DNA from: Acidobacteriota bacterium
GTDB lineage: Bacteria; Acidobacteriota; Terriglobia; Terriglobales; Acidobacteriaceae
DNA length: 37,870 nt
Reading direction: 5' to 3'
Assembly (NCBI GenBank): GCA_021793405.1
Contig: JAJYSV010000040.1
Coordinates: 1 to 37,870 of the forward strand
The position numbers and the translations under genes are program-made. This document shows positions 15,689 through 36,119 of this stretch, in pieces. How positions within the stretch are numbered: the first letter of the stretch is position 1; each line of letters opens with the position of its first letter. Below the pieces are notes generated by a model. That model worked only from the letters and a program-made list of their open reading frames with translations, was not told the origin of the DNA and made no database searches.

Positions 15689-15725
15689 CACATTGCCCCT
15701 TCCAGCGCTGTGGTGCAGGAGCAAA

Positions 15726-15803
15726 TAGAAAGACCCCTACACCATCGTAGGAGTCATCAGCCGCTCCATCTCGGAGGGCAATTATGGCGGATTCCTTCGC
15801 CAA
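15726..15803 (-). promoter_or_regulatory. Fluoride riboswitch 2 (crcB motif) for pyrophosphatase
   Basis: Read on the minus strand: first stem-loop GGCGAAGGAATCCGCC (15801-15786), linker ATAAT, a second stem built from GCC/GGC with an inner TCC/GGA pair, then the conserved GGCTGATGACTCCTACG (15762-15746). The 3' conserved part can instead form a 9-bp hairpin, GACTCCTAC with GTAGGGGTC, around a short loop, followed by TTTCTATTT. That looks like an intrinsic terminator and so suggests transcriptional control. The structure matches the crcB family; one pseudoknot pair is mismatched (GGAAT against ACTCC). Confidence 0.87.
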
Positions 15804-15971
15804 TCAAGGTGTACCACACGTAATGGAGAGGCGCAAGCTCGGACCGACCCTGCAAATACGATGAGGTTTTAGCAGACTTCGTTGTCGTCGGGCATAGGGA
15901 TATCAGCTGCGTCGGGCGTTGGCTTGAGGGCTCTACGTCTGAGACACTAGAACCTCAAAGGCTTCGGTCCT

Positions 15972-15988: not shown

Positions 15989-16015
15989 GTCCTAAGCAAT
16001 AGCATACGATTTACC

Positions 16016-16086
16016 GGCGATGGAATCCGCCATAATCGCCTCTGTTGTACAAGGCTGATGACTCCTACCGAATCTACCTGAAGGGG
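16016..16086 (+). promoter_or_regulatory. Fluoride riboswitch 3 (crcB motif) for the MFS transporter
   Basis: GGCGATGGAATCCGCC (16016-16031), linker ATAAT, the second stem GCCT/AGGC (16038-16041 with 16052-16055) and the conserved GGCTGATGACTCCTACCG (16053-16070). The CTCCT of the aptamer's 3' part is complementary to the Shine-Dalgarno AAGGGG (16081-16086), so the ribosome site can be hidden when the aptamer is unfolded. This is a close match to crcB-family fluoride riboswitches. Confidence 0.9.
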
Positions 16087-16092
16087 ATTTCG

Positions 16093-17295
16093 ATGGAACC
16101 AACAAAAGGGGCAGGCCTGCAACCGACGGCACCTGACAACGGCACAAAACGCCGTAGGGCACTGAAATTTGTGCTCATGATTGGCGCGGTCAGCTTCTTC
16201 GCCGATTTTACCTACGAGGGGTCAAGGTCAATCACAGGCCCGTTCCTCCAGACACTTGGGGCAACAGGCGCAATCGTCGGAATTGTTGCGGGCCTTGGAG
16301 AGTTGCTCGGATACGGACTGCGGTTTTTTTCCGGACGCCTCAGCGAGCGAACAAAAGAGTTCTGGCCCATCACCTTTGTTGGGTACATCGTCCAAATGGC
16401 CGCAGTACCGCTGCTTGCTCTTGCCGGCAATTGGAAGATTGCCGCGCTGCTGATTCTGCTGGAGAGGACCGGGAAAGCGATTCGGAATCCTCCCCGCGAT
16501 GTGATGCTGTCTCATGCGGCAAAGGAAATGGGTTTTGGCTGGGGCTTCGGGATTCATGAGGCGCTCGATCAATCGGGAGCGCTAATTGGCCCGTTACTTG
16601 TGGCGCTGATCCTGGCCCATCGTGGATATTACCAACTGGCCTTTGGCACGCTGCTTGTTCCCGCCATCATGGCTGTGCTGCTACTCTCGATTGCGAGATT
16701 CCTGTATCCTCGTCCAGAAGACTTGGAACCAGTACCCCAGAACATGCAAGCTGCTGGCTTGTCCCGCCGGTTCTGGATCTACCTGATCGCGGCGGCACTG
16801 GTAGCCGCCGGCTTCGCTGACTTCCAATTGATCTCCTTCCATTTCCAGCAAGCAGCTATCGTGAAGACGCTCTGGATTCCAATCTTTTACTCAGTCGCGA
16901 TGGCTGTCAGCGGCGTTGGATCGCTCGTTTTTGGCAGGCTGTTTGACCGCTTTGGCATCTCTGTTCTCATACCCCTCACAGTGCTTTCCGCGTGCTTTGC
17001 GCCACTGGTCTTCCTGGGCGGATTCTGGCTGGCGCTCGTCGGCGCCGCGTTGTGGGGGCTAGGAATGGGCGTGCATGAATCGATTATTCCAGCTGCGGTC
17101 GCGACGATCGTTCCTGCAAGCCGGCGGCCATCTGCTTACGGATTGTTTACCGGTGCATATGGTCTGGCGTGGTTCCTGGGAAGCGCAATCATGGGTATTT
17201 TGTACGACCACTCCATTCCGGCGGTGATCGCTTTCTGCGTCATCGTCGAACTTGCCGCGATTCCTCTACTTTTTAAGGTCCGTAAATCGAAGTAA
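16093..17295 (+). CDS. MFS transporter, fluoride-riboswitch controlled
   Basis: A 400-residue membrane protein of the major facilitator superfamily with 11-12 hydrophobic segments in two halves (first from KFVLMIGAVSFFADF, second from FWIYLIAAALVAAGFADF). The loop between helices 2 and 3 has the GLRFFSGRLSERTKEF signature, and the matching second-half loop is GSLVFGRLFDRFG. Substrate is unknown. ATG 16093 has AAGGGG six bases before it; a longer start at 16045 would lie in the aptamer. Being directly under a fluoride riboswitch, it may export fluoride or a fluorinated or metal-fluoride species, or another stress metabolite (inference). Confidence 0.87.
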   Translation: MEPTKGAGLQPTAPDNGTKRRRALKFVLMIGAVSFFADFTYEGSRSITGPFLQTLGATGAIVGIVAGLGELLGYGLRFFSGRLSERTKEFWPITFVGYIVQMAAVPLLALAGNWKIAALLILLERTGKAIRNPPRDVMLSHAAKEMGFGWGFGIHEALDQSGALIGPLLVALILAHRGYYQLAFGTLLVPAIMAVLLLSIARFLYPRPEDLEPVPQNMQAAGLSRRFWIYLIAAALVAAGFADFQLISFHFQQAAIVKTLWIPIFYSVAMAVSGVGSLVFGRLFDRFGISVLIPLTVLSACFAPLVFLGGFWLALVGAALWGLGMGVHESIIPAAVATIVPASRRPSAYGLFTGAYGLAWFLGSAIMGILYDHSIPAVIAFCVIVELAAIPLLFKVRKSK

Positions 17296-17385: not shown

Positions 17386-17413
17386 TTGACTATTCTCGCC
17401 GGCGAAGTACCAT
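17386..17413 (+). promoter_or_regulatory. Possible promoter of the MutS-like operon
   Basis: TTGACT (17386-17391) and TACCAT (17408-17413) with a 16-base spacer. A start about 7 bases downstream would place the transcript's first base right at the aptamer (17421). The -10 match is only 4 of 6. Confidence 0.4.
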
Positions 17414-17420
17414 TGTAATA

Positions 17421-17506
17421 GGCCAAGGAGTTCGGCCTTAACCGCTGTCCCTCATAGGTCGGACAGATGATGACTCCTGACAAGGGATTCTTGTCGCGGA
17501 GTCATG
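17421..17506 (+). promoter_or_regulatory. Fluoride riboswitch 4 (crcB motif) for the MutS-like pair
   Basis: First stem-loop GGCCAAGGAGTTCGGCC (17421-17437), then TTAACCG, the second stem CTGTCC/GGACAG (17445-17450 with 17461-17466) and GATGATGACTCC. GGAGT and ACTCC make the pseudoknot. The platform is a long hairpin: ATGACTCC (17470-17477) pairs perfectly with GGAGTCAT (17498-17505), with an inner GACAAG/CTTGTC stem. The right arm contains GGAG and the first two bases of an ATG (17504) that opens a leader ORF. Folding of the aptamer would free this start. Confidence 0.9.
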
Positions 17507-17581
17507 TCATCCGCGCTGCGATTCCCAAAAGACAATATAGACCGAATGGAGTTTGCGGCATGGGGCAAATTCGCTGAATAG
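17504..17581 (+). CDS. Leader ORF of 25 codons between riboswitch 4 and the MutS-like gene
   Basis: ATG 17504 lies in the riboswitch hairpin, two bases after GGAG, and opens a reading of [19 protein letters not shown] and WGKFAE that ends with TAG 17579-17581. The MutS-like ATG at 17584 follows after two bases. This spacing suggests that ribosomes released on fluoride binding translate the leader and then reinitiate on the main gene. The peptide itself has no recognisable domain. Read as a coupling device rather than a functional protein (inference). Confidence 0.45.
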
Positions 17582-17583
17582 CC

Positions 17584-19119
17584 ATGACTTTTTCCAGCAT
17601 CCTTTTTGAAAGACCAGACGACGACCGAAGCGGCGAGACACCCGAAGCGCCTGCTTTTTTAGGTGATTTGAATCTGGATCAACTCATCGACGTCGTCACT
17701 GCCGATTGGAAAGACTATGAACTCTTGCCCTTTTATTACACGCCTCTGAACGATCTCGAAGCGATCGAATATCGGCAGCAGGTGATGCGCGATCTGGGAG
17801 ACGAGGGCCTGATGCAAGCTGTCAGGACGTTCTCCCAACAGATGCGTGCAATGCGCGATCACCTCGATCATGCGAAGAAGCGCGACAGCAAGCAGGCGAC
17901 GGAAAGATGGTTTCTGGATTCGGTCGAAATCTATTGTGAGGCGGTTGAGCATCTTTCTCTGGAAGTGCATTTGCTCAACGCAAAATCGCGGGGTCTGACA
18001 GCGTTCCGCGAATATCTGATGGAGTACGCGGCATCGGTCTCCTTTCGCGACCTCCAGACGGAAGCTGCGAAGTTGAAGTCGGACCTGTCCGCCATCCGGT
18101 ACTGCCTTCGTATCAAGGACGGAGGTGTCACGGTTCGCCACTACGACGGAGCAAGCGATTACAGCGCCGATGTCGAGGAAACATTCGAGAAATTCAGAAG
18201 TGGGACCGTGCGCGATTACTCGATCAAACCCCGGAATCGGACGGGCATGAACCATATCCAGGCACAGGTGCTGGATCGGGTAGCGTTGCTATTCCCCGAG
18301 ACGTTTCTCGCCCTCGAGACTTTTTGCGCGTCGCACGCTGAATATCTCGACGAAAGAATTTCTCGCTTTGACCGTGAGATACAGTTCTATGCAGCTTACC
18401 TTACCTACATCGACGAGTTCCGGAGCGCTGGCTTGAACTTCTGCCTGCCGGCGCTCTCCCGGACCTCCAAGGCGGTCAGCGTCCGTGATGCCTTCGACCT
18501 CGCGCTGGCCGATAAGCTCATCCGCGAAGGTAGTGGCGTCGTCTGCAACGATTTCTCTTTAAGCGGACCAGAGCGCATCTTCGTCGTTTCCGGTCCGAAC
18601 CAGGGTGGCAAGACGACGTTCGCTCGCATGTTTGGCCAATTGCATTATCTTGCTAGCCTCGGTTGTCCGGTTCCGGGCTCAGAGGCACGGCTCTTTCTTT
18701 TCGACCGCCTCTTCACGCACTTTGAACGGGAAGAGGACATCACGAATCTCCGCGGCAAGTTGCAGGACGATCTGCTTCGGATTCGCGAGATCCTCGACGA
18801 AGCGACGCCGAGCAGCCTCATCGTCATGAACGAGATTTTCTCCTCCACAACGCTCAAGGACGCAATCTACTTGAGCAAACATGTCATGGCGAGACTTTCC
18901 GCGTTGGACGTGCTGGTTGTCTGCGTTACCTTTCTGGACGAATTGGCATCGTTCGATGAAAAAACGGTCAGCATCGTCAGCTTGGTCGATCCGGAAAATC
19001 CGGCGGTTCGGACCTTTAAATTGGAACGAAGACCGGCCGATGGACTGGCGTATGCGCTTGCGATCGCCCAGAAGTATCGCGTAACGTACGACAGTCTCAA
19101 GGAGCGCATCCAGGTATGA
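17584..19119 (+). CDS. MutS-related ATPase, first of a tandem pair
   Basis: A 511-residue protein with the ATPase domain of the MutS family at its C-terminal end. The Walker [10 protein letters not shown] (337-345) is preceded by RIFVVS. A region with the D[11 protein letters not shown] motif (about 374-385) matches the MutS Q-loop strand. The Walker [13 protein letters not shown] (412-423) has Asn in place of the usual Asp. The family's middle clamp region is suggested by [21 protein letters not shown] (51-71), but the N-terminal mismatch-recognition domain of true MutS is absent. It therefore belongs to the short MutS-like proteins of unknown role. It is the first gene under riboswitch 4 and overlaps the next gene by 4 bases (ATGA). 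Confidence 0.82.
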
Positions 19120-20636
19120 AAGCGCTCCTGATGCACCGCGACCTAGATTTCAACATGAAGGAGTCATTGCCGTGGAACGAGCGGGCGCTGACGCAGGACC
19201 TCGAAGTGGTCACGCTGCTGCACGCCATGGCGGACCATGACGACTTCCTGTTCGACGTGGCACGGAAGGTGGTCTTTTCCGGGTTCCAGAACGATGTCGA
19301 CACAATCCTGTATCGGCAGGAAGTAGTGCAGGATTGCTTGAAGAACCCTGCGGTGGTCAGGGATCTTTACGTCCTGATAGTGGAGGCAATCGAGCGGGCG
19401 AGGAAGCAGTGGTGGGGCTTGTCCAACTACCCGGACTCGTTGCTGTATAGCTCCATCGAATTGATCGAATCGTCACTGGGTACACTTAGGAAGCTGAGGA
19501 GCATCGCCGAAGAGCTATCCGAAAGATTCGCCTCGAAGGCTTTCACAACGCTATTCGCCATGCTCCGCACGGAATTGGACGATGACTACTTGGTCCGTAT
19601 CCAGCACCATCTGACAGCATTGAAATTCCGCAAGGGCGTATTGCTCAGCGCGGAACTGGGCGAGGGTAACGAAGGCGCAAACTATATGTTGTGCCAGACT
19701 CGCGACGATAGGCCGAACTGGTTCGAGCGAATGCTTGGTAAAGGCCCTCCAGCCTATACCTTCCATATCGACGATCGCGACGAGACTGGGGCCCGGATTC
19801 TTTCGGACATGCGGTACCTGGGTATCAGCCGAGTTGCGATTGCGCTCGCCGAATCCGCCGATCACGTTTTGAGCTTCTTCAAGATGCTGCGAGCGGAGTT
19901 GGCCTTTTATGTCGGCTGCCTGAATTTGTACGATCGGCTGGCAGCCAAGAAAGAGCCGATATGCTTCCCCACGCCAACACCCGCAGGCGAACGCAGGCTC
20001 CAACTTTCCGGGCTTTATGATGTTTGTCTGGCGCTTCACATGGAGGACCGAGTGGTTGGCAACGTAGTCGAGGCCGACGGCAAGGGCCTTATCATCGTCA
20101 CCGGCGCCAACCAGGGCGGTAAGTCGAGCTTTCTGCGCAGCATCGGTCTGGCGCAGCTGATGATGCAATGCGGCATGTTCGTTGGGGCTGAGGCTTTCAC
20201 CGCGGAACTCTGTCCTGCTCTGTTCACTCACTACAAGCGGGAGGAGGACGCCACAATGAAGAGTGGAAAGTTCGATGAAGAACTCGCCAGAATGAGCGAG
20301 ATCGCCGACCACATTGGGCCGAACTCGATGCTGCTGTTCAACGAGTCATTTGCTGCGACAAATGAACGAGAGGGATCGGAGATCGCCAAACAGATCGTAT
20401 CCGCATTGCTGGAGAAGCGCATCAAGATCTTCTACGTGACGCACTTGTACGAATTCGCCCACGGCTTCTTCAACAAAAAGCGTGAGGATGCGATCTTCTT
20501 ACGCGCGGAACGAAATGTTGACGGTACGCGCACCTTCCGGCTGCTCGAAGGCGAGCCACCGGAGACCGTGTATGGCGAAGACTTGTATCGTCTGATATTC
20601 GGCTCGGATGATGGACCCAGTGCAGCCAGAGCGTAG
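19116..20636 (+). CDS. MutS-related ATPase, second of a tandem pair
   Basis: A 506-residue paralogue of the preceding protein. It has [19 protein letters not shown] in the middle region, Walker [10 protein letters not shown] (330-338), [21 protein letters not shown] after it and a Walker B-like [13 protein letters not shown] (404-416), again with N-E in place of D-E. The end, [23 protein letters not shown], resembles the MutS tail. Residues 165-230 contain extra sequence with [11 protein letters not shown] and [11 protein letters not shown], absent from the partner. MutS proteins work as dimers, so the two products probably form a heterodimer (inference). The ATGA overlap with the first gene gives coupled, near-equal expression. 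Confidence 0.82.
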
Positions 20637-23598: not shown

Positions 23599-24165
23599 TT
23601 ATCCGCGTAGCCCGCGCTGGGCAACGAGAAACTCGGCAGTTCGGCCGAGCGATCCCCAGCCAGCTCTGTCTGCTTCCGGTTCTTTGCTGAGTTGCAACAA
23701 CTCCTGCGCCAGCCGCTCGCGATGACTCTCGATGATGGCGTCAATCCGGGTGGCAAGAACGATCGGAACTTTTCGCCGCAATTGTATCCCGTGCGGGATG
23801 CAGAGTACCGGCTCCGTTCTCAGCCAGCGAGAGACATCTTCCCGCGCAAGACAACTCACAAACTCCCGGATACACCGCTCCTCCTCCGCGAGAATTTCCC
23901 GGCAGATGTCACATCCAGAGTCTTCGTTGGAGACCGCAGCAGGTTCTTCGAGCAGTTTGAGGAAAACGTGCGCGGCGGATGGAGCGTCCTGAACCGCGGC
24001 AAGGCCCCATGCGTGAAAATTGCACAGGCGGTGGATTTCCTTTTCCCGGTGGTTCTGGAGACGCGCCGTCTGAAATTCTTTCAGAAAGCGACAGAAGGGA
24101 CAGCCATGCTCCGGAAGCACCTGCAGAATCGATTGATGAATGACGAGTTGTTTGTGGGTCCTCAT
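23599..24165 (-). CDS. Cys/His-rich protein with a double C-x2-C / C-x2-H module
   Basis: A 188-residue soluble protein with the ordered motifs C-P-F-C (22, 25), C-N-F-H-A-W (48, 51), C-D-I-C (85, 88) and C-I-P-H (122, 125), followed by a helical tail. This 4+4 ligand pattern suggests two metal (zinc or Fe-S) sites. It is the same pattern as the C-terminal part of the dynamin-like GTPase at 12309-14018. It resembles a module of unknown function in other bacteria (possibly DUF6062-like; from memory, not verified). ATG 24165 overlaps the crcB stop by 4 bases (ATGA), so its synthesis is coupled to the fluoride channel. Function unknown. Confidence 0.75.
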   Translation of the reverse strand: MRTHKQLVIHQSILQVLPEHGCPFCRFLKEFQTARLQNHREKEIHRLCNFHAWGLAAVQDAPSAAHVFLKLLEEPAAVSNEDSGCDICREILAEEERCIREFVSCLAREDVSRWLRTEPVLCIPHGIQLRRKVPIVLATRIDAIIESHRERLAQELLQLSKEPEADRAGWGSLGRTAEFLVAQRGLRG

Positions 24166-24539
24166 GAGATCATCTCCGCGAGAAGGATGCCGCACCATAT
24201 GGCCACAAGGCCAAGAAATAGGCTGCCAAATGCATAAAGGGCCGCCATGGAAAAGTCTCCGTTACGCAGTATGGAGACAGTCTCCCACTCATATGAGGAA
24301 AACGTACTGTAAGCACCAACAAAGCCGATCGGCACCAGGAACCTCCACGCAGGATTCAGGTCCGTTCGCTTGGCCAGAAACGTCAGAGAGAAGCCGATGA
24401 TCACACAAGCCGTGATGTTGATGACAAACGTCCCAAAAGGGAACTTTGTTCCCAGCCTGCTGGCGACCGCCGAACCAACCCAGAATCTTGCGATAGCACC
24501 AAGTGATCCGCCTACCGCAATATACATATATTTCGACAA
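24162..24539 (-). CDS. crcB: Fluoride ion channel CrcB/Fluc
   Basis: A 125-residue protein with four membrane segments, the size and layout of Fluc channels, which act as dual-topology dimers letting F- leave the cell. Diagnostic segments are GGSLGAIARF at the start, GTFVINITACVIIGF with the conserved Asn of helix 2, and GFVGAYSTFSSYEWE with the T-F-S motif of helix 3. The start is TTG 24539, eight bases after GGAGG; starting here gives the typical opening MSKYMYIAVGGSLGA. An ATG would shorten the first strand. It is the second gene of the operon after the dynamin-like gene (16 bases) and overlaps the Cys-rich gene by 4 bases. Confidence 0.95.
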   Translation of the reverse strand: MSKYMYIAVGGSLGAIARFWVGSAVASRLGTKFPFGTFVINITACVIIGFSLTFLAKRTDLNPAWRFLVPIGFVGAYSTFSSYEWETVSILRNGDFSMAALYAFGSLFLGLVAIWCGILLAEMIS

Positions 24540-26718: not shown

Positions 26719-26730
26719 TACTGCGATTTG

Positions 26731-28035
26731 CTATGCCTTCACCGACGTCTGCCAGCGGTCGTAGATGGTGGTGCCTGCGTAGCGGGCCTTGGTTCCGAGT
26801 TCGCGTTCGATCTCCAGAAAACGGTTGTACTTTGCGATGCGTTCGCCGCGACTGGTCGAGCCGGTCTTGATCTGACCCATACCCGCAGCCACCGCCAGGT
26901 CCGCGATGCTGGTGTCATCGGTCTCGCCCGAGCGGTGAGAGATGACCGCGCCGTAGCCGTTCGCGCGAGCAATCTCAATGCATTCGAGCGTCTCCGTCAA
27001 CGTGCCGATCTGGTTCAACTTGATCAGGATGGCATTGGCGATGCCGTCTTTGATTCCCTGACGAAAGAGGGTTGGATTGGTGACAAAATTGTCGTCGCCG
27101 ATCAATTGGATTCTGTCTCCCAGGGTTTTGGTCAGTTGCTGCCAGCCGGAGTGATCGTCTTCGGCAACCCCATCTTCGAGGGCCCATATCTCGGGATACC
27201 TATCAAGCAAGATTTTCCAGAAGTCGACCATCTGTGCCGGCGACTTCCTGCTTTGGTCTGACTTCTCGAAGACATACGCTCCATCTTCAAAAAACTCGCT
27301 GGTAGCCGGGTCCAGGACGATGACGAGGTCCTTGCCAGGCTTATAGCCGGCCTTATGAATTGCTTCGAGAATCAGTTCGATGGGCTCTTCGTTGGACTTC
27401 AATTGCGGCGCGAATCCGCCTTCGTCTCCGACCCCTGTGCTGTAGCCTTTCTTGTGCAGCACGGCTTTTAGAGCATGAAAGGTCTCGGCGGCTGCGCGCA
27501 GTCCCTCGCTGTAGCGAGGCGCGCCGACTGGTGAAATCATGAACTCCTGAAAATCCACGTTGCTGTCGGCGTGACTTCCACCATTCAGCACGTTGAACCA
27601 TGGCGCCGGAATTAGATTGGTAGCCTCGTTCCCCAGACTGGCATAAAACGGGAGTCCTCGGTCTTCCGCCGAAGCTCGTGCAACGGCGAGCGACACTCCC
27701 AGAATTGCGTTGGCTCCCAGGCGCGCCTTGTTCGGCGTCCCATCCAGTTCGCACAGTTTCTTGTCCAATGCCTTTTGATCGTTGGCGTCGAACCCATGCA
27801 CTGCTTTTTGGATTTCACCTGTTACGTGGTTTCTTGCGTTCAGTACGCCCTTACCGCCGTACCGTGCCTTGTCGCCATCCCGCAGTTCTACAGCTTCGCG
27901 TTTGCCGGTCGATGCTCCGGAAGGAACCTTTGCCATTGCTTTCACACCGTTCGACAATGTTGCCGCGACTGCGAGAGTCGGATTCCCTCGGGAATCGAGG
28001 ATTTCAAGAGCTTCAAGTTTTGCAATCTCAGACAT
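26731..28035 (-). CDS. eno: Enolase
   Basis: A 434-residue full-length enolase (2-phosphoglycerate to phosphoenolpyruvate), another classical target of fluoride, which forms an inhibitory fluoride-phosphate-magnesium complex. Visible motifs are LDSRGNPT near the N-terminus, [52 protein letters not shown] and SHRSGETDD. The usual GDDLF strand reads GDDNFVTNP. Start ATG 28035 ([10 protein letters not shown]) agrees with the family; a longer frame to 28200 was not used. Expression is under riboswitch 6, whose aptamer lies about 285 bases upstream. An overlapping leader ORF ends 5 bases inside the gene. Whether the enzyme is unusually fluoride-tolerant cannot be told. Confidence 0.94.
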
Positions 28036-28246
28036 AATGAGTACGCTTTCCCGACACGAGGTCGTTGGTTGTAAGCCATTCCACAATACGCAATGGAGCG
28101 GATGATGAACGCCACGGCGCAATGCCATGGACTCCGTTCCGAAAAGGAGGAAGTTCGATCGCAGTTTGCGCGCGAGGGATCGCGTCCACGATCGCGTCAA
28201 GCGCGAAACCGCAGCACAAAGCCGAGAGAACCCACCTATAGTTCAT
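28028..28246 (-). CDS. Possible leader ORF overlapping the enolase start
   Basis: A 72-codon frame from ATG 28246 with a hydrophobic opening [19 protein letters not shown] that looks like a short signal sequence, followed by an unremarkable stretch. It ends at TGA 28028, eight bases past the enolase ATG on the other reading frame. The enolase start itself has only a poor Shine-Dalgarno, so coupling through this frame is possible. No homology is recognised. It may simply be a chance frame in the 5' untranslated region between riboswitch 6 and enolase. Confidence 0.3.
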
Positions 28247-28380: not shown

Positions 28381-28394
28381 TAACCAACCCTTAC

Positions 28395-28423: not shown

Positions 28424-28556
28424 CACTCACTACTGAAAGGCATGGCATTACGAGTTCCCTACGGTCATAATGGTCGAACGTCAATGCGGCCAACTTTTGC
28501 GATCTTGACAAACCGGCAGCGAGGATCGAAGATTCATTTACAAACAATTTGTACCT

Positions 28557-28614
28557 GGTGATGAAGTCCACCGTTAACCGCCTTCATGGCTGATGACTCC
28601 TACCCTAACGGGGA
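28557..28614 (+). promoter_or_regulatory. Fluoride riboswitch 7 (crcB motif) for the Ehr operon
   Basis: GGTGATGAAGTCCACC (28557-28572), then GTTAACCG, the short second stem GCC/GGC and the conserved GGCTGATGACTCCTACC (28588-28604). The CTCC and ACCC of the 3' part are complementary to CGGGGA (28609-28614), the ribosome site of the following leader ORF. The pseudoknot GAAGT/ACTCC has one mismatch. A TTGACA lies at 28505-28510; a good -10 was not seen. Confidence 0.87.
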
Positions 28615-28622
28615 ACTATGCC

Positions 28623-28715
28623 ATGAAGAAAGTCCCGCCCCTCTCGCGCCATCCGCACAGAAGTTCTGTCCCAGGAGATTTCCCACATCACCGCAAGCGC
28701 AGGAGAGCCGCGTGA
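28623..28715 (+). CDS. Leader ORF of 30 codons coupled to the Ehr operon
   Basis: ATG 28623, nine bases after GGGGA, opens a basic peptide: MKKVPPLSRHPHRSSVPGDF, then a run ending RKRRRAA. Its TGA (28713-28715) overlaps the GTG start of the first complex gene (28712) as GTGA. This is typical translational coupling, so control of this leader by the riboswitch would pass to the complex. A peptide function is not suggested; the sequence is Arg/His/Pro-rich with no known domain. Confidence 0.45.
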   Translation: MKKVPPLSRHPHRSSVPGDFPHHRKRRRAA

Positions 28716-29659
28716 TTCTCTCCGATGTCCTCCTGCAGATCCTTCAAGTCCTTTGCGTGTTGTTGCTGGCTCCGCTGCTGCAAGGCTTCATTCTCAAGGT
28801 AGAAGAGCGCGTGCAGCGCAGCCGCGGACCAAGTCTTTTCCAGCCGTATCGAGACCTGTGGAAGCTCTTCCATAAGGAATCCGTCGCGCCTGAATCGGCA
28901 TCGTGGATTTACTTCACCGCCCCGATTGTCGCCTTCACTGCGATGTTGACCGTGCCGATTCTGATTCCAGTTCTCACCGATCGGCCGCTACCGCTGTCCG
29001 ATATGGGAGACATGCTCGGTGGCGGAATGATCCTGACGCTGGGGTCGTTCGCTATTATCCTGGCCGGACTCGACACAGGGAATGTGTATGGCGGCATCGG
29101 ATCGAGCAGGGCGGTCATGCTGGCGATTTTGGCAGAACCGACCCTGATCCTGGTGCTGGTCGGAATTAGCCTGCTGGCCAAGGCCATGCTGCCCTTCGTC
29201 GTCAATCATTTGTTGCTTGGCAGTCTCTCTATCTACTGGAGCCCCGCACATTTGTTCCTGATCCTGGCTTTCCTGTCACTGCTTCTGGTAGAGACGGACC
29301 GGCTGCCAGTGCATTCGAGCACGCACCTGGAAATCTACATGATCGACGAGGCCCGCATCCTCGAATACTCCGGACCGCTGCTCGCTTTGCTGAAGTGGGC
29401 TTCGATGATGAAGCAGGTGATCCTCTACACGATCTTTTGCAACGTGTTTCTGCTTCCCTGGGGAATGTCGCAGGTCGGCACGCCGCTCGGTGAACTTGGT
29501 TCCCTTGCAAGTTTAACCATCAAGTTTCTGCTGGTGGCGTTGACCGTTGTCGTGGTCGAAACAGTGCAGTCGCGCCTTCGCTTCTATCGCTATCAGGAGC
29601 CGCTGGCGGCAGGATTTTTGTTCGCCGTGCTTGCCATCGTGTCCAGTCAATTGCTATGA
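28712..29659 (+). CDS. Ehr complex membrane subunit, HyfC/HycD/NuoH-like
   Basis: A 315-residue membrane protein of the complex I subunit 1 (NuoH/HycD) family with about eight hydrophobic segments. Near the N-terminus it has LLLAPLLQGFILKVEERVQRSRGP followed by SLFQPYRDLWKLFHKE, the conserved quinone-site-like cytoplasmic loop of this family. Later VETDRLPVHSSTHLEI matches the conserved E-x-D-R-x-P motif, and EYSGPLLALLKWASMMKQ follows. Start GTG 28712 has AGGAGA at a five-base distance. It anchors the soluble arm on the membrane and begins the six-gene operon. It is the first gene downstream of riboswitch 7. Confidence 0.85.
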   Translation: MILSDVLLQILQVLCVLLLAPLLQGFILKVEERVQRSRGPSLFQPYRDLWKLFHKESVAPESASWIYFTAPIVAFTAMLTVPILIPVLTDRPLPLSDMGDMLGGGMILTLGSFAIILAGLDTGNVYGGIGSSRAVMLAILAEPTLILVLVGISLLAKAMLPFVVNHLLLGSLSIYWSPAHLFLILAFLSLLLVETDRLPVHSSTHLEIYMIDEARILEYSGPLLALLKWASMMKQVILYTIFCNVFLLPWGMSQVGTPLGELGSLASLTIKFLLVALTVVVVETVQSRLRFYRYQEPLAAGFLFAVLAIVSSQLL

Positions 29660-29669
29660 GGAGCGTCAA

Positions 29670-30350
29670 ATGTTTCTCGCGCATGTGAATTCACTGCAGG
29701 CATCGATCTTCAGCTCGCTCGCGATTTTGAGCCTGCTGCTGGCGTTTGTCATGCTCGGTTCGCATTGGCTACGGAATTATGTCTATGCCTTCGCTGCAGA
29801 GTCCTGGCTGATTGCGGTTCTGTCCGCTGCGGTTGGATACTTCGGAGGATACCCGGAACTCTACGCCATCGCTTTCCTGACTGCGATCTTTCGCGGACTC
29901 GTGCTGCCGTATCTGCTGATGCGCATCATCGACCGTTTGCATGTTAAACGCGAGGTGCACGCGATTCTTCAACCGAGTTCGAGCCTGGTGGTGGGCGCTC
30001 TGCTCGTGATGTTCGCCTTTGTCATCGCCAACCATATGAATCGCCAGGCGCCTCCCGCCGGCTATGTTGTCGTGCTGGCATTGACCATCATGATCTCAAT
30101 GAAGTTTCTGGGATTCCTGATGCTCTCCGTGCGCAACGAGGCTGTCAGTCAAATCCTCGCTCTTCTCGTTCTGGAAAACGGCATCTTTCTGGGGTCTCAG
30201 ATTCTCGTCCCTGGAATGCCGATGCTGATCGAGATTGTGATTCTCTTCGACCTCCTGATCGTGGTGGCGTGCTTCGGAATGCTGGTGCGCTTTCTCCTGG
30301 TCCATGCAGGCACAACAAGCAGCCGCGAACTCAAGCGGCTGGTGGGTTAA
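29670..30350 (+). CDS. Ehr complex membrane subunit, HyfE-like (NuoK-related)
   Basis: A 226-residue membrane protein with six to seven hydrophobic segments, of the HyfE family, which carries the complex I subunit K-like part. ENGIFLGSQILVPGMPMLIEIVILFDLLIVV has the conserved Glu residues expected in the transmembrane helices (Glu in LLVLENGIF and in LIEIV). The start ATG 29670 follows GAGGAG by six bases; an upstream frame within the preceding gene was discarded. It is the second gene of the complex operon, 10 bases after the first and 6 before the next. Confidence 0.82.
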   Translation: MFLAHVNSLQASIFSSLAILSLLLAFVMLGSHWLRNYVYAFAAESWLIAVLSAAVGYFGGYPELYAIAFLTAIFRGLVLPYLLMRIIDRLHVKREVHAILQPSSSLVVGALLVMFAFVIANHMNRQAPPAGYVVVLALTIMISMKFLGFLMLSVRNEAVSQILALLVLENGIFLGSQILVPGMPMLIEIVILFDLLIVVACFGMLVRFLLVHAGTTSSRELKRLVG

Positions 30351-30356
30351 GGGACG

Positions 30357-31826
30357 ATGGTACAAGACCTGGTCATCATCCTTTTCTGTGCTCCCCTGGC
30401 AGCGGCGCTCCTGTCGTTTGGATCGCGCCACTCCCGCGCCGCCGAGTATGGCACCGTGGTTGCCGCAAGCGCAGACTTTGTCGTCAGCATTCTTCTGCTG
30501 GTGGCCACGCTGCGCCATGGTTCAACTCTGTGGTGGCGGGCCTATATCCAGATCGATGCCCTCGGCGCGTGGGTCATTCTTTGTATCTCCATCGTGTATG
30601 CGCTTTCGTCCATCTATGCCGTCGGGTACATGCGATTGCTCGACGAGGAAGAACGGCTTCCTCTGTTCTATGGATTGTTCTCCGGCTTCGCCTTCACCAT
30701 GCTGGCAGCCTGCGTCATGAACAACGCGGGAGTGTTCTGGATCGCCATCGAATTGACGACGCTAATCAGCACCTTTCTGGTGGGCTTTGAACGTGAGGCC
30801 GAGAGCACGGAAGCAGCATGGAAGTACATCGTCGTTGTTTCTAGCGGCATCAGCTTGGCCCTGCTCGGCACGGTCTTGTTTTATTGGGGCGGATCGTTCG
30901 TCCTCGGACCGACCTATGCCATGACCTGGACCGCTCTTCATCATTCGGCCTCTCAGGTGTATCCACCTCTCTTGACGGTTTCCTTTTTGCTGGTGCTGGT
31001 GGGTTATGGCACCAAAGCGGGATTGGCCCCGATGCACACCTGGCTGCCGGATGCGCACAGCGAATCGCCCGCACCGGTCTCCGCAATGCTGTCGGGCGCA
31101 CTATTGAATGCCTCGATGCTCGGCATCGCGCGATTCCTGGGAGTCGTCAGCGGCACTTCCACCAGCAGGCTTGCACATACCGCTGTAGTCTGCTTCGGTA
31201 TCTTCTCCTTTGTCATCGCTTCCCTGTTCATCGTGAGGCAAACAGGGATCAAGCGGCTGATGGCCTACTCCAGCGTCGAACATATCGGCGTTCAGGCGCT
31301 TGGCCTGGGCTTTGGCGGCGTTCTCGGCATCGCGGGCGCGCTCTACCACATGCTCAATCATTCCCTGAATAAGTCTCTGATGTTCTTCGGTGCCGGGAAT
31401 GCCATGCGCGCCTATGGCTCGAAGGAGATCACGGACATCCGCGATGTACTTAGGACCTTTCCGGTCACAGGAATCCTGTGGCTGCTGGGCGCTGTGGGCA
31501 TTGCGGGCGCCCCGCCCTTTGCTCTTTTCCTGAGTGAGTTCACCATTCTTCGTGCAGGGATTGCGGGTCCCTATCGCTGGGCTGTCGTCTTGTTCGTGAT
31601 TTTCTTGGTCGTGGTGTTTATCGGATTTCTTTCCCATTTTCGCGCGATGTACTTTGACGAAACCGAAAACCCACCTATGCCACGAATCCTGCCCGGCCTC
31701 GTGTGGCGGGCCCTCCCCATGTGGCTGTCATTTCTCCCCGTGCTGGTTCTTGGGCTGTGGTGGCCGCACGTTCTATGGAACGCCTTCACAACCATCTCGG
31801 CTGAAATCATGGGGGGCGCGCGATAA
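30357..31826 (+). CDS. Ehr complex antiporter-like subunit, HyfF-type
   Basis: A 489-residue protein of the proton-conducting NuoL/M/N-Mrp type with about 13-14 membrane segments. The strongest signature is TKAGLAPMHTWLPDAHSESP followed by APVSAMLSG, typical of antiporter-like subunits, with the conserved Lys before the Pro-rich loop. LMAYSSVEHIGVQALGLG and HMLNHSLNKSLMFFGAGN are further hallmark stretches, with a His and a Lys on broken helices. Such subunits carry ion movement across the membrane. It lies 6 bases after the HyfE-like gene. Confidence 0.88.
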   Translation: MVQDLVIILFCAPLAAALLSFGSRHSRAAEYGTVVAASADFVVSILLLVATLRHGSTLWWRAYIQIDALGAWVILCISIVYALSSIYAVGYMRLLDEEERLPLFYGLFSGFAFTMLAACVMNNAGVFWIAIELTTLISTFLVGFEREAESTEAAWKYIVVVSSGISLALLGTVLFYWGGSFVLGPTYAMTWTALHHSASQVYPPLLTVSFLLVLVGYGTKAGLAPMHTWLPDAHSESPAPVSAMLSGALLNASMLGIARFLGVVSGTSTSRLAHTAVVCFGIFSFVIASLFIVRQTGIKRLMAYSSVEHIGVQALGLGFGGVLGIAGALYHMLNHSLNKSLMFFGAGNAMRAYGSKEITDIRDVLRTFPVTGILWLLGAVGIAGAPPFALFLSEFTILRAGIAGPYRWAVVLFVIFLVVVFIGFLSHFRAMYFDETENPPMPRILPGLVWRALPMWLSFLPVLVLGLWWPHVLWNAFTTISAEIMGGAR

Positions 31827-31846
31827 AAGGTGCGATTGAGCGCGTA

Positions 31847-33316
31847 TTGCGTCCCGAGGAGATACCGCAGGCGTGCGACGATCTCATGAAGGCTGGCGGA
31901 CGCCTGCAAATGGCCTATGCCTGGTTCCCCGCGCCCGGCCAATCCGTGGAGGTTGCGTACCTGGCGGCCACTGCTCCCCATGAACCCTTCGTCTTTCTAC
32001 GCTGCTCACTGCCTGCGGACTCGCCCCATCTCCAGTCGCTTGCCCCTCAGGTTCCTCTGCTGGGCTGGTATGAACGCGAAATTCAGGAACTGTGCGGAGT
32101 CACATTCGACGGACATCCCGAGCCCAGGCCGCTGGTCTTGCACGAGGGCGCGCATCCCACCATGCCGCCGCTCGATCCCCGGTACCAGCCGGACGAAATG
32201 ATGCCCTTCACTTCTGAACCCTGGGACCGTCCTCCGGTCGAAGGCGACGACGTGCAGACATTGCCGTTCGGCCCGGTGCGGGCCGATGTGCTGGAATCTG
32301 CGCAGATCTTCTTCTACTACATTGGGGAAGCGATTCTCCATTGTCATCCTCGTTTGTTCTTCAAGCATCGCGGAATGGAAAAGCGATTTGAAGGGACCTT
32401 GCCCTCGCTCGGTGTCGTATTGGCGGAACTAATTTCAGGCGTTGACAGCATCGCCCACTCGTTGGCCTACTGCCAGGCAATCGAGGCAGCCTGCGGATGC
32501 GAGATACCGGAGCGCGCTCGCTATCTTCGTACCGTTCTGGCGGAACTGGAGCGCCTCTACAATCATCTCCACTATTTCGGCCATCTCTGCCACACAACCA
32601 CGTTGAAAGTAGGCGAAGCGCAAGGAAAGCTGCTCGCGGAACAATCGAAACAGATCAACGGGATACTTACTGGCAGCCGTTTTCTACGTGGCATTCTCAA
32701 GCCGGGCGGACTGCGCCGCGACCTCGACCTGAGCACGTTGCCAGAAATGTTGAACAGGTTGCAGCCGGAGATCACCACCTACCTCAGGTCGATGGAAGAG
32801 ACCAATAGTCACCTCGATCGATTGATTACCACCGGTCATCTGCCGCTGCAAACGGCCTACGATCAGGGCGCAACCGGGCCCGTCAAGCGCGCCTCTGGAA
32901 TCGGCCGCGACCTTCGCGGCGACCACCCCTACGCAGCCTATGACCGGCTCACGATGAACATACCGGTGCGGACTGAAGGGGACGCGCACGCTCGCGTGCA
33001 AATTCGGATGGAAGAGATTCATGAGAGCCTCTCCCTGATCGCCCGCGCCGCGAAGGATGTCCCGGAGGGCCCGGTCTCTTCCGAAATTAGCAATGTTTCC
33101 GGTGGCGAAGGTTTGGGTTGGTGCGAAGGCGCGAGAGGCTCGACGTATTACTGCGTGCATCTCGACAACGCGGGCCGGTTGGCGCGGGTCAAAATCAAAT
33201 CGCCCTCATTCTCAAACTGGCGTGTATTTCCATTGACCGTACACGACACCAACATGATGGACTACGCCATCAATGAAGCAAGTTTTGGCCTGACGATGGC
33301 TGGCTGTGACCGATAG
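31847..33316 (+). CDS. Ehr complex large subunit (NuoC-D/HycE-like) without NiFe ligands
   Basis: A protein of about 489 residues fusing a 30-kDa-type N-terminal part (WYEREIQELCGVTFDGHPEP, 74-93) to a NiFe-hydrogenase/NuoD-like large subunit (FKHRGMEKRFEG; NHLHYFGHL). The first nickel motif of hydrogenases, C-G-x-C, reads S-G-V-D here (197-200, in ELISGVDSIAHS). The C-terminal D-P-C-x-x-C reads E-A-S-F-G-L. All four nickel-binding cysteines are therefore missing, so no hydrogenase activity is expected. This is the mark of energy-converting-hydrogenase-related (Ehr) complexes. The start is uncertain: TTG 31847 is given, and an upstream in-frame ATT or ATA cannot be excluded. The substrate site is probably a quinone or unknown donor. 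Confidence 0.86.
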   Translation: MRPEEIPQACDDLMKAGGRLQMAYAWFPAPGQSVEVAYLAATAPHEPFVFLRCSLPADSPHLQSLAPQVPLLGWYEREIQELCGVTFDGHPEPRPLVLHEGAHPTMPPLDPRYQPDEMMPFTSEPWDRPPVEGDDVQTLPFGPVRADVLESAQIFFYYIGEAILHCHPRLFFKHRGMEKRFEGTLPSLGVVLAELISGVDSIAHSLAYCQAIEAACGCEIPERARYLRTVLAELERLYNHLHYFGHLCHTTTLKVGEAQGKLLAEQSKQINGILTGSRFLRGILKPGGLRRDLDLSTLPEMLNRLQPEITTYLRSMEETNSHLDRLITTGHLPLQTAYDQGATGPVKRASGIGRDLRGDHPYAAYDRLTMNIPVRTEGDAHARVQIRMEEIHESLSLIARAAKDVPEGPVSSEISNVSGGEGLGWCEGARGSTYYCVHLDNAGRLARVKIKSPSFSNWRVFPLTVHDTNMMDYAINEASFGLTMAGCDR

Positions 33317-33331
33317 GGCGAAGGAGTAGTT

Positions 33332-34135
33332 ATGCCAGTGTGGACACTGTATGGAATCCGCCGTGGAATCGCGACAACTTCGTGGCCGGAGAAGGAGGGG
33401 CCGACCCAGCCAGGAGTGCTCGGACTGCCGCACTACCACGCCGACCGCTGTCAGGATAACTGTCGCGCATGCGCCGATGTTTGCCTCCCAGGCGCGCTCT
33501 CGTTCGAATCGTGTGAGGCGGAGGAGCGGCTAGCTCTTGACTACGGCAAGTGCATCGGCTGCCAGCTCTGTACGGAGGCCTGCCCCAACGATGCGCTGAC
33601 AAAATCCAACGACTGGGCCTTTGGCGTCCGCAACCGCGACGATCTGATCTGGACGGAAGCGCTCCAGTCTCCTCCGGCTGAGGAAGTGACCAGGAAAATC
33701 CAGAAATATTTTGGCCGCAGTCTCCATGTCCGCCATGTAGACGCCGGTTCCTGCAACGGATGCGAGTCCGAGTTGCAGGCATTGAACAACCCGTATTACA
33801 ACCTGCACCGGCTGGGCATCTTCTTCACGCCTTCACCACGCTTCGCGGATTTGCTACTCGTGACCGGCCCGGTCACCTATGCCATGCAAGGTCCGCTGAG
33901 GGAGACCTATAACGCCATGCCGGAGCCGCGCTGGGTGATGGCAATGGGGGCCTGCGCCGTTTCCGGCGGTGCCAGCGGTGGAGGATATAGCTGCGGACAC
34001 GGCGTAGAGGAATTCCTGCCGGTAGACATTTATGTGCCCGGTTGTCCTCCAAACCCGGCAGCGATGATTCACGCGCTGTTATTGCTGCTCAATCGTGCGA
34101 GTCAGCATGTTCAAGGAGGCCAAGTTGCTCACTGA
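33332..34135 (+). CDS. Ehr complex small subunit fused to a 2[4Fe-4S] ferredoxin domain
   Basis: A 267-residue protein. Residues 38-90 hold two 4Fe-4S motifs, C-x3-C-x2-C-x3-C (40, 44, 47, 51) and C-x2-C-x2-C-x3-C-P (74, 77, 80, 84). Residues 130-255 match the NuoB/HycG-type small subunit, with C141-N-G-C144, C208 in MAMGACAVSGG and C238 in VPGCPPNP, the four ligands of the proximal 4Fe-4S cluster. The fusion of HyfH-like ferredoxin and HyfI-like small subunit in one chain is uncommon. Start ATG 33332 follows AAGGAG. Unlike the large subunit it keeps all its cluster ligands, so electron transfer through the complex is still possible. Confidence 0.88.
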   Translation: MPVWTLYGIRRGIATTSWPEKEGPTQPGVLGLPHYHADRCQDNCRACADVCLPGALSFESCEAEERLALDYGKCIGCQLCTEACPNDALTKSNDWAFGVRNRDDLIWTEALQSPPAEEVTRKIQKYFGRSLHVRHVDAGSCNGCESELQALNNPYYNLHRLGIFFTPSPRFADLLLVTGPVTYAMQGPLRETYNAMPEPRWVMAMGACAVSGGASGGGYSCGHGVEEFLPVDIYVPGCPPNPAAMIHALLLLLNRASQHVQGGQVAH

Positions 34136-36119
34136 TGCCCTCTTGCTGATGGCGCTGCTGTGGCTGATTTCCGTCGGTGTCGCGCTGATCGATCCGCGCG
34201 GCACGATGGCCCGCGCGGGAATTGTTCTTGGCTGCGCCGTTGGCATCGCCGCCTGCTTGATCGGTATGCCCGGCGAATCGAGCACACTATCGCTGGGAAT
34301 TCGTTTGAGCGACACGCCGGTCCAGTTCAAGCTGACCGCGGCAGCTCTTTGGTTGATGTTTTTTGGGCTTCTACCGGCCATATTTGCCGCCGGGTTAGGT
34401 ACAAACGCGACCTCGTTCCGAGGGAGAAGATGCTGGTACGCGGGCCTCGGCCTTACCCTGCTGGGAGCAATCGGCGTGTTCGGGCTCCAAGACGCGATGT
34501 CCTTTCTGATCGCGTGGGAGACGATGAGCATCGGCGGGGCCGTCATGATTTTTGGCGACGGACATTCGGAACGTCCGGGCACCCCGGTTCTGTTCATGCT
34601 CGGGTTGCTTGAGGTGGGAGCTGTGGCAATCTTGCTGGCCCTGCTGCTGCTGGGCAACCAGGCTGGGTCGTGTTCCTTTGCAGGTTTTCATGTAGCAAAC
34701 GCTGTCGCAACCCCCTTGTCTTTTCTTCTTGGACTGTTATTGCTTATCGGGTTTGGAGCGAAACTGGGCATCCTCCCGTTCTACGAATGGTTTCCCGCAG
34801 CGTACGGTTCTGGCAGCGGTGCAACCGGAGTCGTCTTTTCCGGCATCGTTCTGAATGCCGCTTTCTATGCGCTTGCCCGTGGCGTGATCGAGTGGCTGCC
34901 GCGCTCTGGCACGTGGACGACGAGTGCCGCTGGGATCATGATTTTAGCCGGAGTGCTGACCGCGATTCTGTCGATCTTCAACGCCTTCCAGGAGGAAGAC
35001 TGGCGGCGGATGTTGAGTCTCTCGTCGGCGGAAAACGCAGGCGTCGCCGTGGCGGTGCTGGGTGTTTCGTGGTTGCTGCTCGCCAGCGGACTCCCTACGC
35101 AGGCAGCGCTGGCATGGATCGTTTGCCTGCTGCATCTGGCCGCCCATAGCCTTGCCAAAGGGACCCTGTTCCTCACAGCCGACGGCGTCGATTCCATGAA
35201 CGGCAGCTACACCATTGTGCAGCGAGGCTTGTTGCGAAACAATCCCGCCGTTCTTGGCATTGGCGCACTGTTCGCTGCAATGAGTCTGGCGGCACTGCCT
35301 CCCATGGCCGGCTTCGTTAGCGAATGGTACATATTCCAAACTCTGTTTCATGGAATGCAGGTGAATGGACTGCCTGCAAGGCTGACCATGACGCTGGCGG
35401 CCGCGGGTCTGGCACTCGTCGTTGCTGTAGCCCTGGCAACGTTTGCGAAGCTGTTTGGCATTGGCCTGCTCGGCGATGGCCACGTTCATACGCGACGTTT
35501 TGCTCGGGTTCGAACAGCGGCCATCTTTATTCTTGGATCCTCTGTGCTCGTTCTCGCCGTGGGGATGCCGTGGTGGTTGCATGCGTTGGGGCCAGCGAGC
35601 CAGGCCATCTTCGGTGTCAATGCAGCGGCACAAATGCGGGACGGATGGTTGCTCGTCCCGCTCAGCAACAAATTTGCCTTTATCTCGCCGACAAAAATGC
35701 TGGTGGTGTGTCCTCTGCTGGCGCTCATTCCGATTGCGTTGCTACTGATAGGCAGGCGGGCGTTTCACGTTCGTCGTGTGCCAGTTTGGTCGGGCGGACG
35801 CCGGGAAGATGCGCGAGAGATTGCCACCACATCCCTGGCATTTTCCAACGCGCTGCGCACATTCTATGGATTCATCTATGGCCCAACGCACAATCTGGAG
35901 CGCGAGTATGACCACGGACCGTATTTCGTAAAGAGGCTCATCTTCAATCAGGAAGTGGCGCCCATCTTTGGCCCGTACCTCTTCTCGCCGTTGGTAAAAG
36001 CTATGCGCAGGGTCGCTGAAACAGTCAGCAAGCTGCAATCCGGCTACCTGAACCTTTATAACGCCCTGATCGGGATGCTCTTAGTGCTGATTCTTGCATT
36101 GGCGTTGTTTTACAAATAG
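34125..36119 (+). CDS. Ehr complex antiporter-like subunit, HyfB-type (NuoL-like)
   Basis: A protein of about 664 residues with some 16 membrane segments. ETMSIGG (Glu in a membrane helix), GAKLGILPFYEWFPAAYGSG and SLSSAENAGVAVAVLG are the expected antiporter-like signatures, and HLAAHSLAKGTLFLTADG carries the conserved Lys/His helix. A TTG at 34125 stands five bases after a perfect AAGGAGG, so that start was chosen over GTG 34095 and ATG 34107, which have no ribosome site. It overlaps the small-subunit gene by 11 bases. The C-terminal residues form an amphipathic stretch and a last membrane helix. It completes the six-subunit complex. Confidence 0.86.
   Translation: MLTDALLLMALLWLISVGVALIDPRGTMARAGIVLGCAVGIAACLIGMPGESSTLSLGIRLSDTPVQFKLTAAALWLMFFGLLPAIFAAGLGTNATSFRGRRCWYAGLGLTLLGAIGVFGLQDAMSFLIAWETMSIGGAVMIFGDGHSERPGTPVLFMLGLLEVGAVAILLALLLLGNQAGSCSFAGFHVANAVATPLSFLLGLLLLIGFGAKLGILPFYEWFPAAYGSGSGATGVVFSGIVLNAAFYALARGVIEWLPRSGTWTTSAAGIMILAGVLTAILSIFNAFQEEDWRRMLSLSSAENAGVAVAVLGVSWLLLASGLPTQAALAWIVCLLHLAAHSLAKGTLFLTADGVDSMNGSYTIVQRGLLRNNPAVLGIGALFAAMSLAALPPMAGFVSEWYIFQTLFHGMQVNGLPARLTMTLAAAGLALVVAVALATFAKLFGIGLLGDGHVHTRRFARVRTAAIFILGSSVLVLAVGMPWWLHALGPASQAIFGVNAAAQMRDGWLLVPLSNKFAFISPTKMLVVCPLLALIPIALLLIGRRAFHVRRVPVWSGGRREDAREIATTSLAFSNALRTFYGFIYGPTHNLEREYDHGPYFVKRLIFNQEVAPIFGPYLFSPLVKAMRRVAETVSKLQSGYLNLYNALIGMLLVLILALALFYK

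Follow-up and report, generated by a model that had tools for sequence, protein, structure and literature searches.

The formate hydrogenlyase and hydrogenase 4 of Escherichia coli (Hyc and Hyf; 7z0s) keep Ni ligands in the large subunit, where HycE also carries a C-terminal extension, the peptide removed at maturation by a protease. The sulfane reductase MBS of Pyrococcus furiosus, presumably the complex in PDB entry 6u8y, is a relative without NiFe. As described in parts of PMC7684303, MBS is fed by ferredoxin, has antiporter-type subunits and lacks the quinone His/Tyr of complex I; its proximal-cluster motif is three residues shorter, one iron is left without Cys, and two NiFe cysteines are kept, while CxxC spacing at that cluster is the hydrogenase kind. 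Complex I itself has an adjacent Cys pair there, together with the quinone His/Tyr. Ehr complexes are presented, in passages of PMC6349859 and PMC10284858, as group 4 hydrogenase homologues without Ni-binding motifs, with antiporter-like subunits and a function that is unknown or suspected to be charge translocation. We analysed a 37,870-base contig (JAJYSV010000040.1; 55.8% GC; hereafter the window) of a 4.6 Mb Acidobacteriota assembly in 137 contigs, in which a fluoride riboswitch precedes six genes for a Hyf/Hyc-like membrane complex without Ni ligands. Our reading, to which we assign a probability of roughly 0.6, is that this operon represents a fluoride-dedicated, Ehr-like clade of redox-driven ion pumps, pumping being what we infer, which would restore the proton-motive force drained by hydrogen fluoride (HF) entry and F- export.

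The riboswitch, the six genes and the two antiporter-like subunits had all been named in the initial annotation and were recovered with family models, as follows.

28548..28609, + strand: fluoride riboswitch aptamer before the complex (RF01734, 61.3 bits against a gathering score of 34, E 8.5e-15)
28582..28627, + strand: putative switching stem, CTTCATGGC (28582-28590, in the aptamer) against GCCATGAAG (28619-28627), perfect pairing
28712..29659, + strand: HyfC/NuoH-like membrane subunit (PF00146, 4e-34; GTG start, ribosome-binding site AGGAG at 28701)
29670..30350, + strand: HyfE-like membrane subunit (NF008556, 1.2e-12, under the curated cut-off)
30357..31826, + strand: HyfF-like antiporter-type subunit (PF00361, 5.8e-53; NF005044, hydrogenase 4 subunit F, 2.1e-118, under cut-off)
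31847..33316, + strand: HyfG-like large subunit of the NuoC+NuoD type, without Ni ligands (PF00346, 2.1e-42; TTG is the first standard start)
33332..34135, + strand: HyfH-like 2[4Fe-4S] ferredoxin domain fused to a HyfI/NuoB-like small subunit (PF01058, 2e-28; Fer4)
34107..36119, + strand: HyfB-like antiporter-type subunit, the final gene (PF00361, 5.9e-28; NF005086, hydrogenase 4 subunit B, 3.1e-82, under cut-off; ATG at 34107)

The genes of the operon (28712-36119) run in the order C-E-F-G-(H+I)-B and are packed, with intergenic gaps of at most 20 bases or overlaps. For HyfC, the listed open reading frame begins at 28586, within the aptamer, and GTG 28712 was taken as the start. The start of HyfG is uncertain between TTG 31847 and ATA 31823, as the relatives L048 and L049 begin with Met eight codons earlier, where the window has ATA; this ATA, with TTG 24 bases on, is either a genuine variant, an error of assembly or an unusual start codon. 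Of the NCBIfam matches listed for the six proteins, the sole one to pass its cut-off was the NuoB subfamily model NF005012 (126.5 against 116), and this near-absence of passes fits a divergent clade. A terminator scan of the operon region on both strands gave no clear excess over shuffled sequences (10 against 7.9, standard deviation 3.0).

To place the large subunit, 84,980 species genomes were searched with an alignment of eight sequences, the window's included, and the best 80 of 168 encoding loci were taken as relatives of the window type (family F1). The closest named large-subunit relatives, at 96-97% identity, come from metagenome-assembled genomes (MAGs) of Acidobacteria. In alignment with HycE, HyfG and NuoCD, the Ni-ligand columns of E. 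coli HycE (CGIC from 241, DPCYSC from 529) are occupied in the window by S197, D200, T483 and G486, and none of the 87 F1 rows has Cys at any of these four columns. In the same alignment or in parallel ones, true hydrogenases (L141, L145, L149, L151, L224, L236, E. coli proteins) have CCCC there, so the alignment can detect ligands where they are present. The claim that the NiFe site is missing therefore held, no conserved nickel ligand having emerged, and of the two motifs quoted for it S-G-V-D was exact; D-P-C-x-x-C is faced not by E-A-S-F-G-L but by G-L-T-M-A-G, a few places further on. In addition, the window's large subunit terminates at GCDR, and HycE continues past that point. An AlphaFold2 model of the subunit (mean pLDDT confidence 88.6) has the HycE/NuoCD fold, and its best match is E. 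coli HycE (7z0s_E; Foldseek E 1.9e-32; Z 42.6, root-mean-square deviation 2.3 over 481 residues, 27% identity). Modelled residues 145-147 and 485-489 are of low confidence, hence the model is used in support of the fold alone and no pocket was read from it.

The initial annotation had also proposed a search for a quinone pocket. In the large subunit the His/Tyr pair of complex I is absent: the Tyr column is G or A in 87/87 F1 rows, 86/87 have L, V, F, M or Q at the second His, and the first His column (position 145) is Arg in 86/87. Position 145 is His in HycE, in NuoCD and in all 19 Ehr-type rows, and mostly Tyr (81% of 16) in a second fluoride-linked family, F2, described below. A complex I-type quinone pocket was accordingly rejected on sequence, though a quinone site of another kind may exist. 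MBS-type chemistry is likewise unsupported, as the small subunit shows no shortened motif: CxxC spacing (C141, C144) and CxxCE are kept in 85/85 sequences, where NuoB has adjacent CC, and, unlike in MBS, all four NiFe cysteines are gone. As far as these residues tell, none of the three chemistries, NiFe, complex I quinone or MBS, appears to apply.

The literature offers a different identity. In a passage of Weinberg 2010 (PMC2864571) the crcB motif lies before 'genes encoding formate hydrogen lyase', and a 2024 review (PMC11139923), in the part consulted, names formate hydrogen lyase as one of the enzymes most often associated with the riboswitch and reads it as a fermentation response. On this view the complex would be a real formate hydrogenlyase, fermenting when fluoride blocks glycolysis; besides the name, it has in its favour that every subunit is homologous to Hyc/Hyf, that HycE is the best fold match and that some hosts do possess HypD. 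It is contradicted, however, by the missing ligands in every F1 row and by a large subunit that stops where HycE continues, as well as by the surroundings of the genes. A search of 80 loci (1.31 Mb of nearby DNA) gave no match to HycI, HycH, HypA, HypB, HypD or HypE, with a working E. coli positive control, and none to FdhF, for which the search lacked a positive control. Matches to HycB/HyfA were few and weak (those listed at most 48.5 bits) and lay just 3' of the large-subunit gene, in the stretch that encodes the fused ferredoxin domain.

HypD is required to build any NiFe centre. Of 50 host genomes 31 lack it, and among the 21 titled as a strain rather than a MAG 14 do, genome completeness not being given. 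HypD is present, on the other hand, in the other 19 hosts and in the window's own genome; for these the argument is void, and as proof for the window's own organism it failed. Ligands, C-terminus, accessory genes and HypD taken together led us to reject a hydrogenase or formate hydrogenlyase identity, and we regard its probability as negligible. The genes called formate hydrogen lyase in the fluoride literature are very probably the same genes as those described here, although their gene lists were not seen by us. Among titles, beginnings of abstracts and opened passages (with Baker 2012 represented through the review), no paper was found to say that a NiFe site is missing from the fluoride-linked 'formate hydrogenlyase'. 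Fluoride control of the complex, which had been called unexpected, is thus a surprise that is only partly new: the link to fluoride was known, and the new part is that the name formate hydrogen lyase is wrong.

The association with the riboswitch was then counted across F1, using a covariance model built from 24 riboswitches (that of L047 belongs to its training set). A riboswitch on the + strand lies 5' of the complex in 66/66 testable loci, or 65 after dropping one identical pair; the remaining 14 of the 80 best loci have less than 3.0 kb of upstream sequence and fall outside the testable set. The distance to the large-subunit match is 3.2-3.7 kb in 65 loci and 4.5 kb in L097, and the lowest score is 30.2 bits (L088). 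The F1 tallies contain two repeats, L095 being identical to L096 and L047 and L069 apparently being the same contig. The family spans two phyla, Acidobacteriota and alpha-, beta- and gamma-Proteobacteria, with hosts that include Acidicapsa, Paraburkholderia, Caballeronia, Trinickia, Pollutimonas, Mesorhizobium, Rhodopila, Ancylobacter, Thiomonas and Dyella, and three Burkholderia/Caballeronia plasmids carry the complex too. The gene order C-E-F-G-(H+I)-B is found in 68 of the 70 loci with all six genes; in the other two, the best HyfB match lands on the HyfF gene.

Independently of these close relatives, we surveyed 299 genomes of the window's class for large-subunit matches at E 1e-50 or better. 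This gave 61 matches in 56 genomes, and the surroundings were read for 59 of them (G174 and G186 were left out), comprising 4 F1 loci, 15 F2 loci, 4 NiFe hydrogenases and 36 Ehr-type loci. F2 is a second fluoride-linked family, with the motif FAAxxAFAH ... ILATFGLSxxE in most members, no row out of 17 with two Cys at the Ni-ligand columns (two rows have one), and a gene order that, where the ends are visible, starts with C and finishes with B. The F2 loci are L138, L140, L200, L203, L209-L213, L215 and L217-L222; several contain a further HyfB-like antiporter-type gene, giving three antiporter-like subunits. A riboswitch lies upstream in 12 of 13 testable F2 loci, the thirteenth (L210) being cut inside the operon; this tally includes G042 and a Mycobacterium branderi plasmid from other searches and excludes four loci with less than 400 nucleotides upstream. 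The scores range from 19.6 to 50.9 bits (cmsearch), and of five weaker ones checked against Rfam four were above gathering and L203 was slightly under (33.8 against 34). In L222 the riboswitch stands 414 nucleotides ahead of HyfE, with no HyfC match between. On the M. branderi plasmid pJCM12687 (L158, 3414-16771), an actinobacterial complex lies near enolase, DUF190, MFS and NUDIX genes, with three fluoride-riboswitch-like matches of 39.7, 26.8 and 24.2 bits to the covariance model built here.

A riboswitch was found directly upstream in 0 of 33 testable Ehr-type loci and in 0 of 5 testable NiFe loci. Matches of 10-17 bits to the model occur in L136, L147, L150, L151, L153, L154, L233 and L235 (Ehr-type, NiFe and added loci); of those tabulated for position none is just upstream of the operon, the matches in L233 and L235 not having been placed, and four loci added later gave only covariance-model matches of at most 13.9 bits. 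The link between riboswitch and complex is thus not a matter of chance. At least one riboswitch match occurs in 188 of the 299 genomes and four or more in 21 (tables read by eye). Every one of the 17 genomes that bear F1 or F2 belongs to those 21, and the 167 genomes having one to three matches include none of them; the complex is therefore a marker of genomes strongly adapted to fluoride.

Large-subunit trees agree with these groupings. In both trees a branch with a support of 98 (SH-aLRT, an approximate likelihood-ratio test) separates F1 plus F2 from the other rows; the branch that sets off the Ehr-type rows is weakly supported, at 84 in the first tree and 76 in the second. When NuoCD is included, the fluoride-linked and Ehr-type rows split together from the NiFe and Nuo rows at 99, which, with the missing ligands, bears out the earlier assignment to the Ehr type; the Ehr label on the comparison rows was assigned here from missing ligands, and the trees contain no published Ehr reference sequence. 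F2 has a support of 38 with the long-branch L158 and of 100 without it (second tree). These were quick searches with some long branches (L158, NuoCD), the first thinned to 96 rows by removing short and near-identical ones, and their topology is compatible with a single origin of fluoride control. Within the Ehr-like side the window type stands apart as its own clade: most Ehr-type relatives here start with B rather than C, have no riboswitch where F1 does, keep His at position 145 where F1 has Arg, and read NKSFNL at the C-terminus where the window type has EASFGL. The wording that the complex 'has lost' its NiFe site went too far. Riboswitch-free Ehr-type relatives are without ligands too; their absence may thus be independent of fluoride control, and the idea that ligands were lost because of it is unsupported.

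How the riboswitch would act on the operon was sought in the leaders of the window and 65 of the 66 riboswitch loci (L096 left out; n=66, 40 rows listed). In the window, the stem formed by CTTCATGGC and GCCATGAAG occurs in the minimum-free-energy fold and is mutually exclusive with the aptamer fold, although the leader as a whole is no more stable than shuffles (z -0.87). Among the leaders listed, the same pairing is present in L054, L056 and L060, and with one wobble in L062. L059, L064 and L070 have an analogous pair in which both strands differ, TTCCAGGC and GCCTGGAA, and L068 has it shortened by one base; other groups place the downstream strand opposite the GATGACTCC or GATGCCTAC segment instead. 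Across the set, 23 of 66 stems beat 95% of downstream-strand shuffles, with about 3 expected. The pairing suggests an anti-aptamer stem. An intrinsic terminator as expression platform was rejected, a T-rich tail following the best stem in 4 of 66 leaders only.

The remaining parts of the complex appear equipped both to carry electrons and to move ions. The twelve Fe-S cluster cysteines of the fused ferredoxin/small subunit, described as intact in the initial annotation, are all kept in 85/85 sequences, the window included (85 of the 87 F1 candidates were long enough to count). At least 95% conserved in 84 sequences, and common to the E. coli proteins, are E152, K220, K299, H331, H335, K339 and E394 of HyfF and, counted from 34107, E138, K219, H347, K351, E406 and K448 of HyfB, charged residues that we take to be the pumping residues of the family. 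As both sets are conserved, the electron path and the ion path both look maintained. HyfC (numbered from 28712; n=76) has in addition clade-specific charged residues, with H180, H201, R215 and E296 at 100% and H205 and R293 at 99%; these positions differ in E. coli HyfC, HycD and NuoH, and the residues are candidates for an unusual substrate or coupling site.

This conservation bears on the chief rivals, which are electron disposal and an antiporter with a relic arm. In the first, the complex would primarily be a fluoride-tolerant bypass of a fluoride-blocked metabolic step, like the extra enolase and pyrophosphatase adjoining it, and pumping would be secondary. The intact Fe-S chain and invariant clade-specific large-subunit residues such as R145 of F1 agree with it, and the neighbouring riboswitch targets enolase and pyrophosphatase are fluoride-inhibited enzymes; the operon, however, encodes no donor- or acceptor-specific subunit, and its antiporter subunits retain conserved charges that a pure redox bypass would not need, so we consider it unlikely. 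The second, an Mrp-like secondary cation/proton antiporter in which the hydrogenase-like arm is a structural relic, draws on the two antiporter-like subunits and on the place of Na+/H+ antiporters as the next most common class of fluoride-riboswitch genes after exporters, as given in section 13 of the review (PMC11139923). Twelve Fe-S cysteines invariant in 85/85 sequences from two phyla, and a large subunit with 67% mean column identity over 43 sequences, are unlike a relic, and this explanation seems to us more improbable still.

A redox-driven ion pump is therefore the reading that we prefer, and it is more likely that the complex pumps protons (or sodium) than that it makes hydrogen. As judged from the conserved aptamer and the competing stem, binding of fluoride and Mg by the riboswitch would allow the operon to be expressed; soil bacteria would thus probably switch on the complex when fluoride appears. 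Electrons would pass from a soluble low-potential donor to the fused 2[4Fe-4S] domain, then to the proximal cluster of the small subunit, whose ligands are all present, and on to an acceptor in the cavity between large subunit and HyfC, which would be neither protons at NiFe nor a quinone held by the His/Tyr of complex I. The redox reaction would drive HyfF and HyfB to export H+ or Na+, as their family and conserved charges indicate. HF would diffuse in and dissociate, and F- would follow the electrical gradient out through the CrcB channel encoded alongside, so that on balance protons enter; the induced pump would restore membrane potential and internal pH, and fluoride export could continue. 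Section 13 of the same review states that HF permeation acidifies the cytosol and that fluoride export is driven by the proton-motive force. Gradient restoration, as already proposed in the initial annotation, is the best available explanation, and we rate it as more probable than its rivals. Several points weigh against it. E. coli-type formate hydrogenlyase is homologous throughout, so pumping is not shown by homology alone; many hosts are, we assume, aerobes with no obvious supply of strongly reducing ferredoxin; both the window's genome and 19 of the 50 hosts possess HypD; and the window's own HyfG carries ATA at the start position of its relatives. The switching mechanism, moreover, is uncertain because just 23 of 66 stems beat 95% of shuffles and T-rich tails are found in only 4 of 66 leaders. 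A bolder proposal is that the complex is one more NiFe-less design within the complex I superfamily, a fluoride-devoted redox-driven ion pump whose acceptor differs from protons at NiFe, from quinone in a complex I-type site and from polysulfide at an open cluster, which pays for fluoride export and which is the 'formate hydrogenlyase' named since 2010; taken as a whole, we put this forward as tentative.

The window contains five fluoride riboswitches above the Rfam gathering score and two weaker matches, at 8980-9063 (+ strand, 23.2 bits) and 26665-26727 (- strand, 26.8 bits), the latter directly 5' of a dynamin-CrcB run; the whole genome has 14 matches, nine above the cut-off. Their neighbours in the window are a pyrophosphatase, an MFS transporter, a MutS-like pair, three dynamin-like proteins, a DUF190/P-II protein, CrcB, enolase and the complex, and from such company it follows that the complex belongs to a fluoride-resistance island, of which the following features were placed.

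15161..15810, - strand: inorganic pyrophosphatase (PF00719, 2.1e-54), with a fluoride riboswitch at 15741-15810 (-; RF01734, 38.2 bits)
16007..17295, + strand: fluoride riboswitch at 16007-16074 (RF01734, 55.7 bits) and MFS transporter (PF07690, 1.6e-28)
17412..20636, + strand: fluoride riboswitch at 17412-17486 (RF01734, 35.7 bits) and a pair of MutS-domain-V proteins (PF00488, 2e-17 and 1.3e-19)
24162..24539, - strand: CrcB/Fluc fluoride channel of the same island (PF02537, 1.6e-26)
26731..28200, - strand: enolase, divergent from the complex (PF00113, 5.5e-110), with its own fluoride riboswitch at 28312-28389 (-; RF01734, 39.6 bits)

Between 28312 and 28609 two fluoride riboswitches stand back to back with 158 bases between them, facing enolase (-) and the complex (+), and this pair recurs on contig C134 (L043) and in L048 and L049. 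The three dynamin-like GTPases of the island lie at 12309-14018, 20737-22491 and 24556-26646, and dynamin genes adjoin the Burkholderia copies as well. Among the 53 loci with a length of 15 kb or more, 49 carry homologues of other island genes and 32 carry CrcB. A further explanation, that the complex itself moves fluoride, for example by coupled F-/H+ export, has the tight fluoride linkage alone in its favour; with a dedicated CrcB channel in so many loci and, among the matches listed, no subunit that matches a fluoride transporter family, we consider it very improbable.

Contig C134 of the same assembly (L043, 1-10767) repeats part of the island in collinear order, with 83.6% identity over two stretches totalling 10.6 kb; its large subunit is 90% identical to the window's and has its own riboswitch. 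This copy may reflect two islands or, as the assembly is fragmented, a mixture of two strains. A further partial copy, at 91-94% identity, lies on contig C26 (L044). Elsewhere, plasmids of Burkholderia multivorans and B. cenocepacia (L051, L053) have fluoride islands that combine the complex with dynamin, pyrophosphatase and DUF190 genes and with either MutS or CrcB, and the B. cenocepacia plasmid is typed as conjugative. A fluoride island with enolase, pyrophosphatase and crcB has been described in Enterobacter cloacae FRM (PMC5533749), in whose main text the words 'hydrogenlyase', 'formate' and 'NADH' are absent.

Since no fluoride-linked relative examined has the catalytic site, the fermentation reading of the fluoride-linked formate hydrogenlyase in the literature should be reconsidered. 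An Ehr clade with one tightly conserved inducer, fluoride, offers a handle on what Ehr complexes do. For the cells that carry it, the complex suggests that export alone is insufficient at high fluoride and that they must repay the proton leak.

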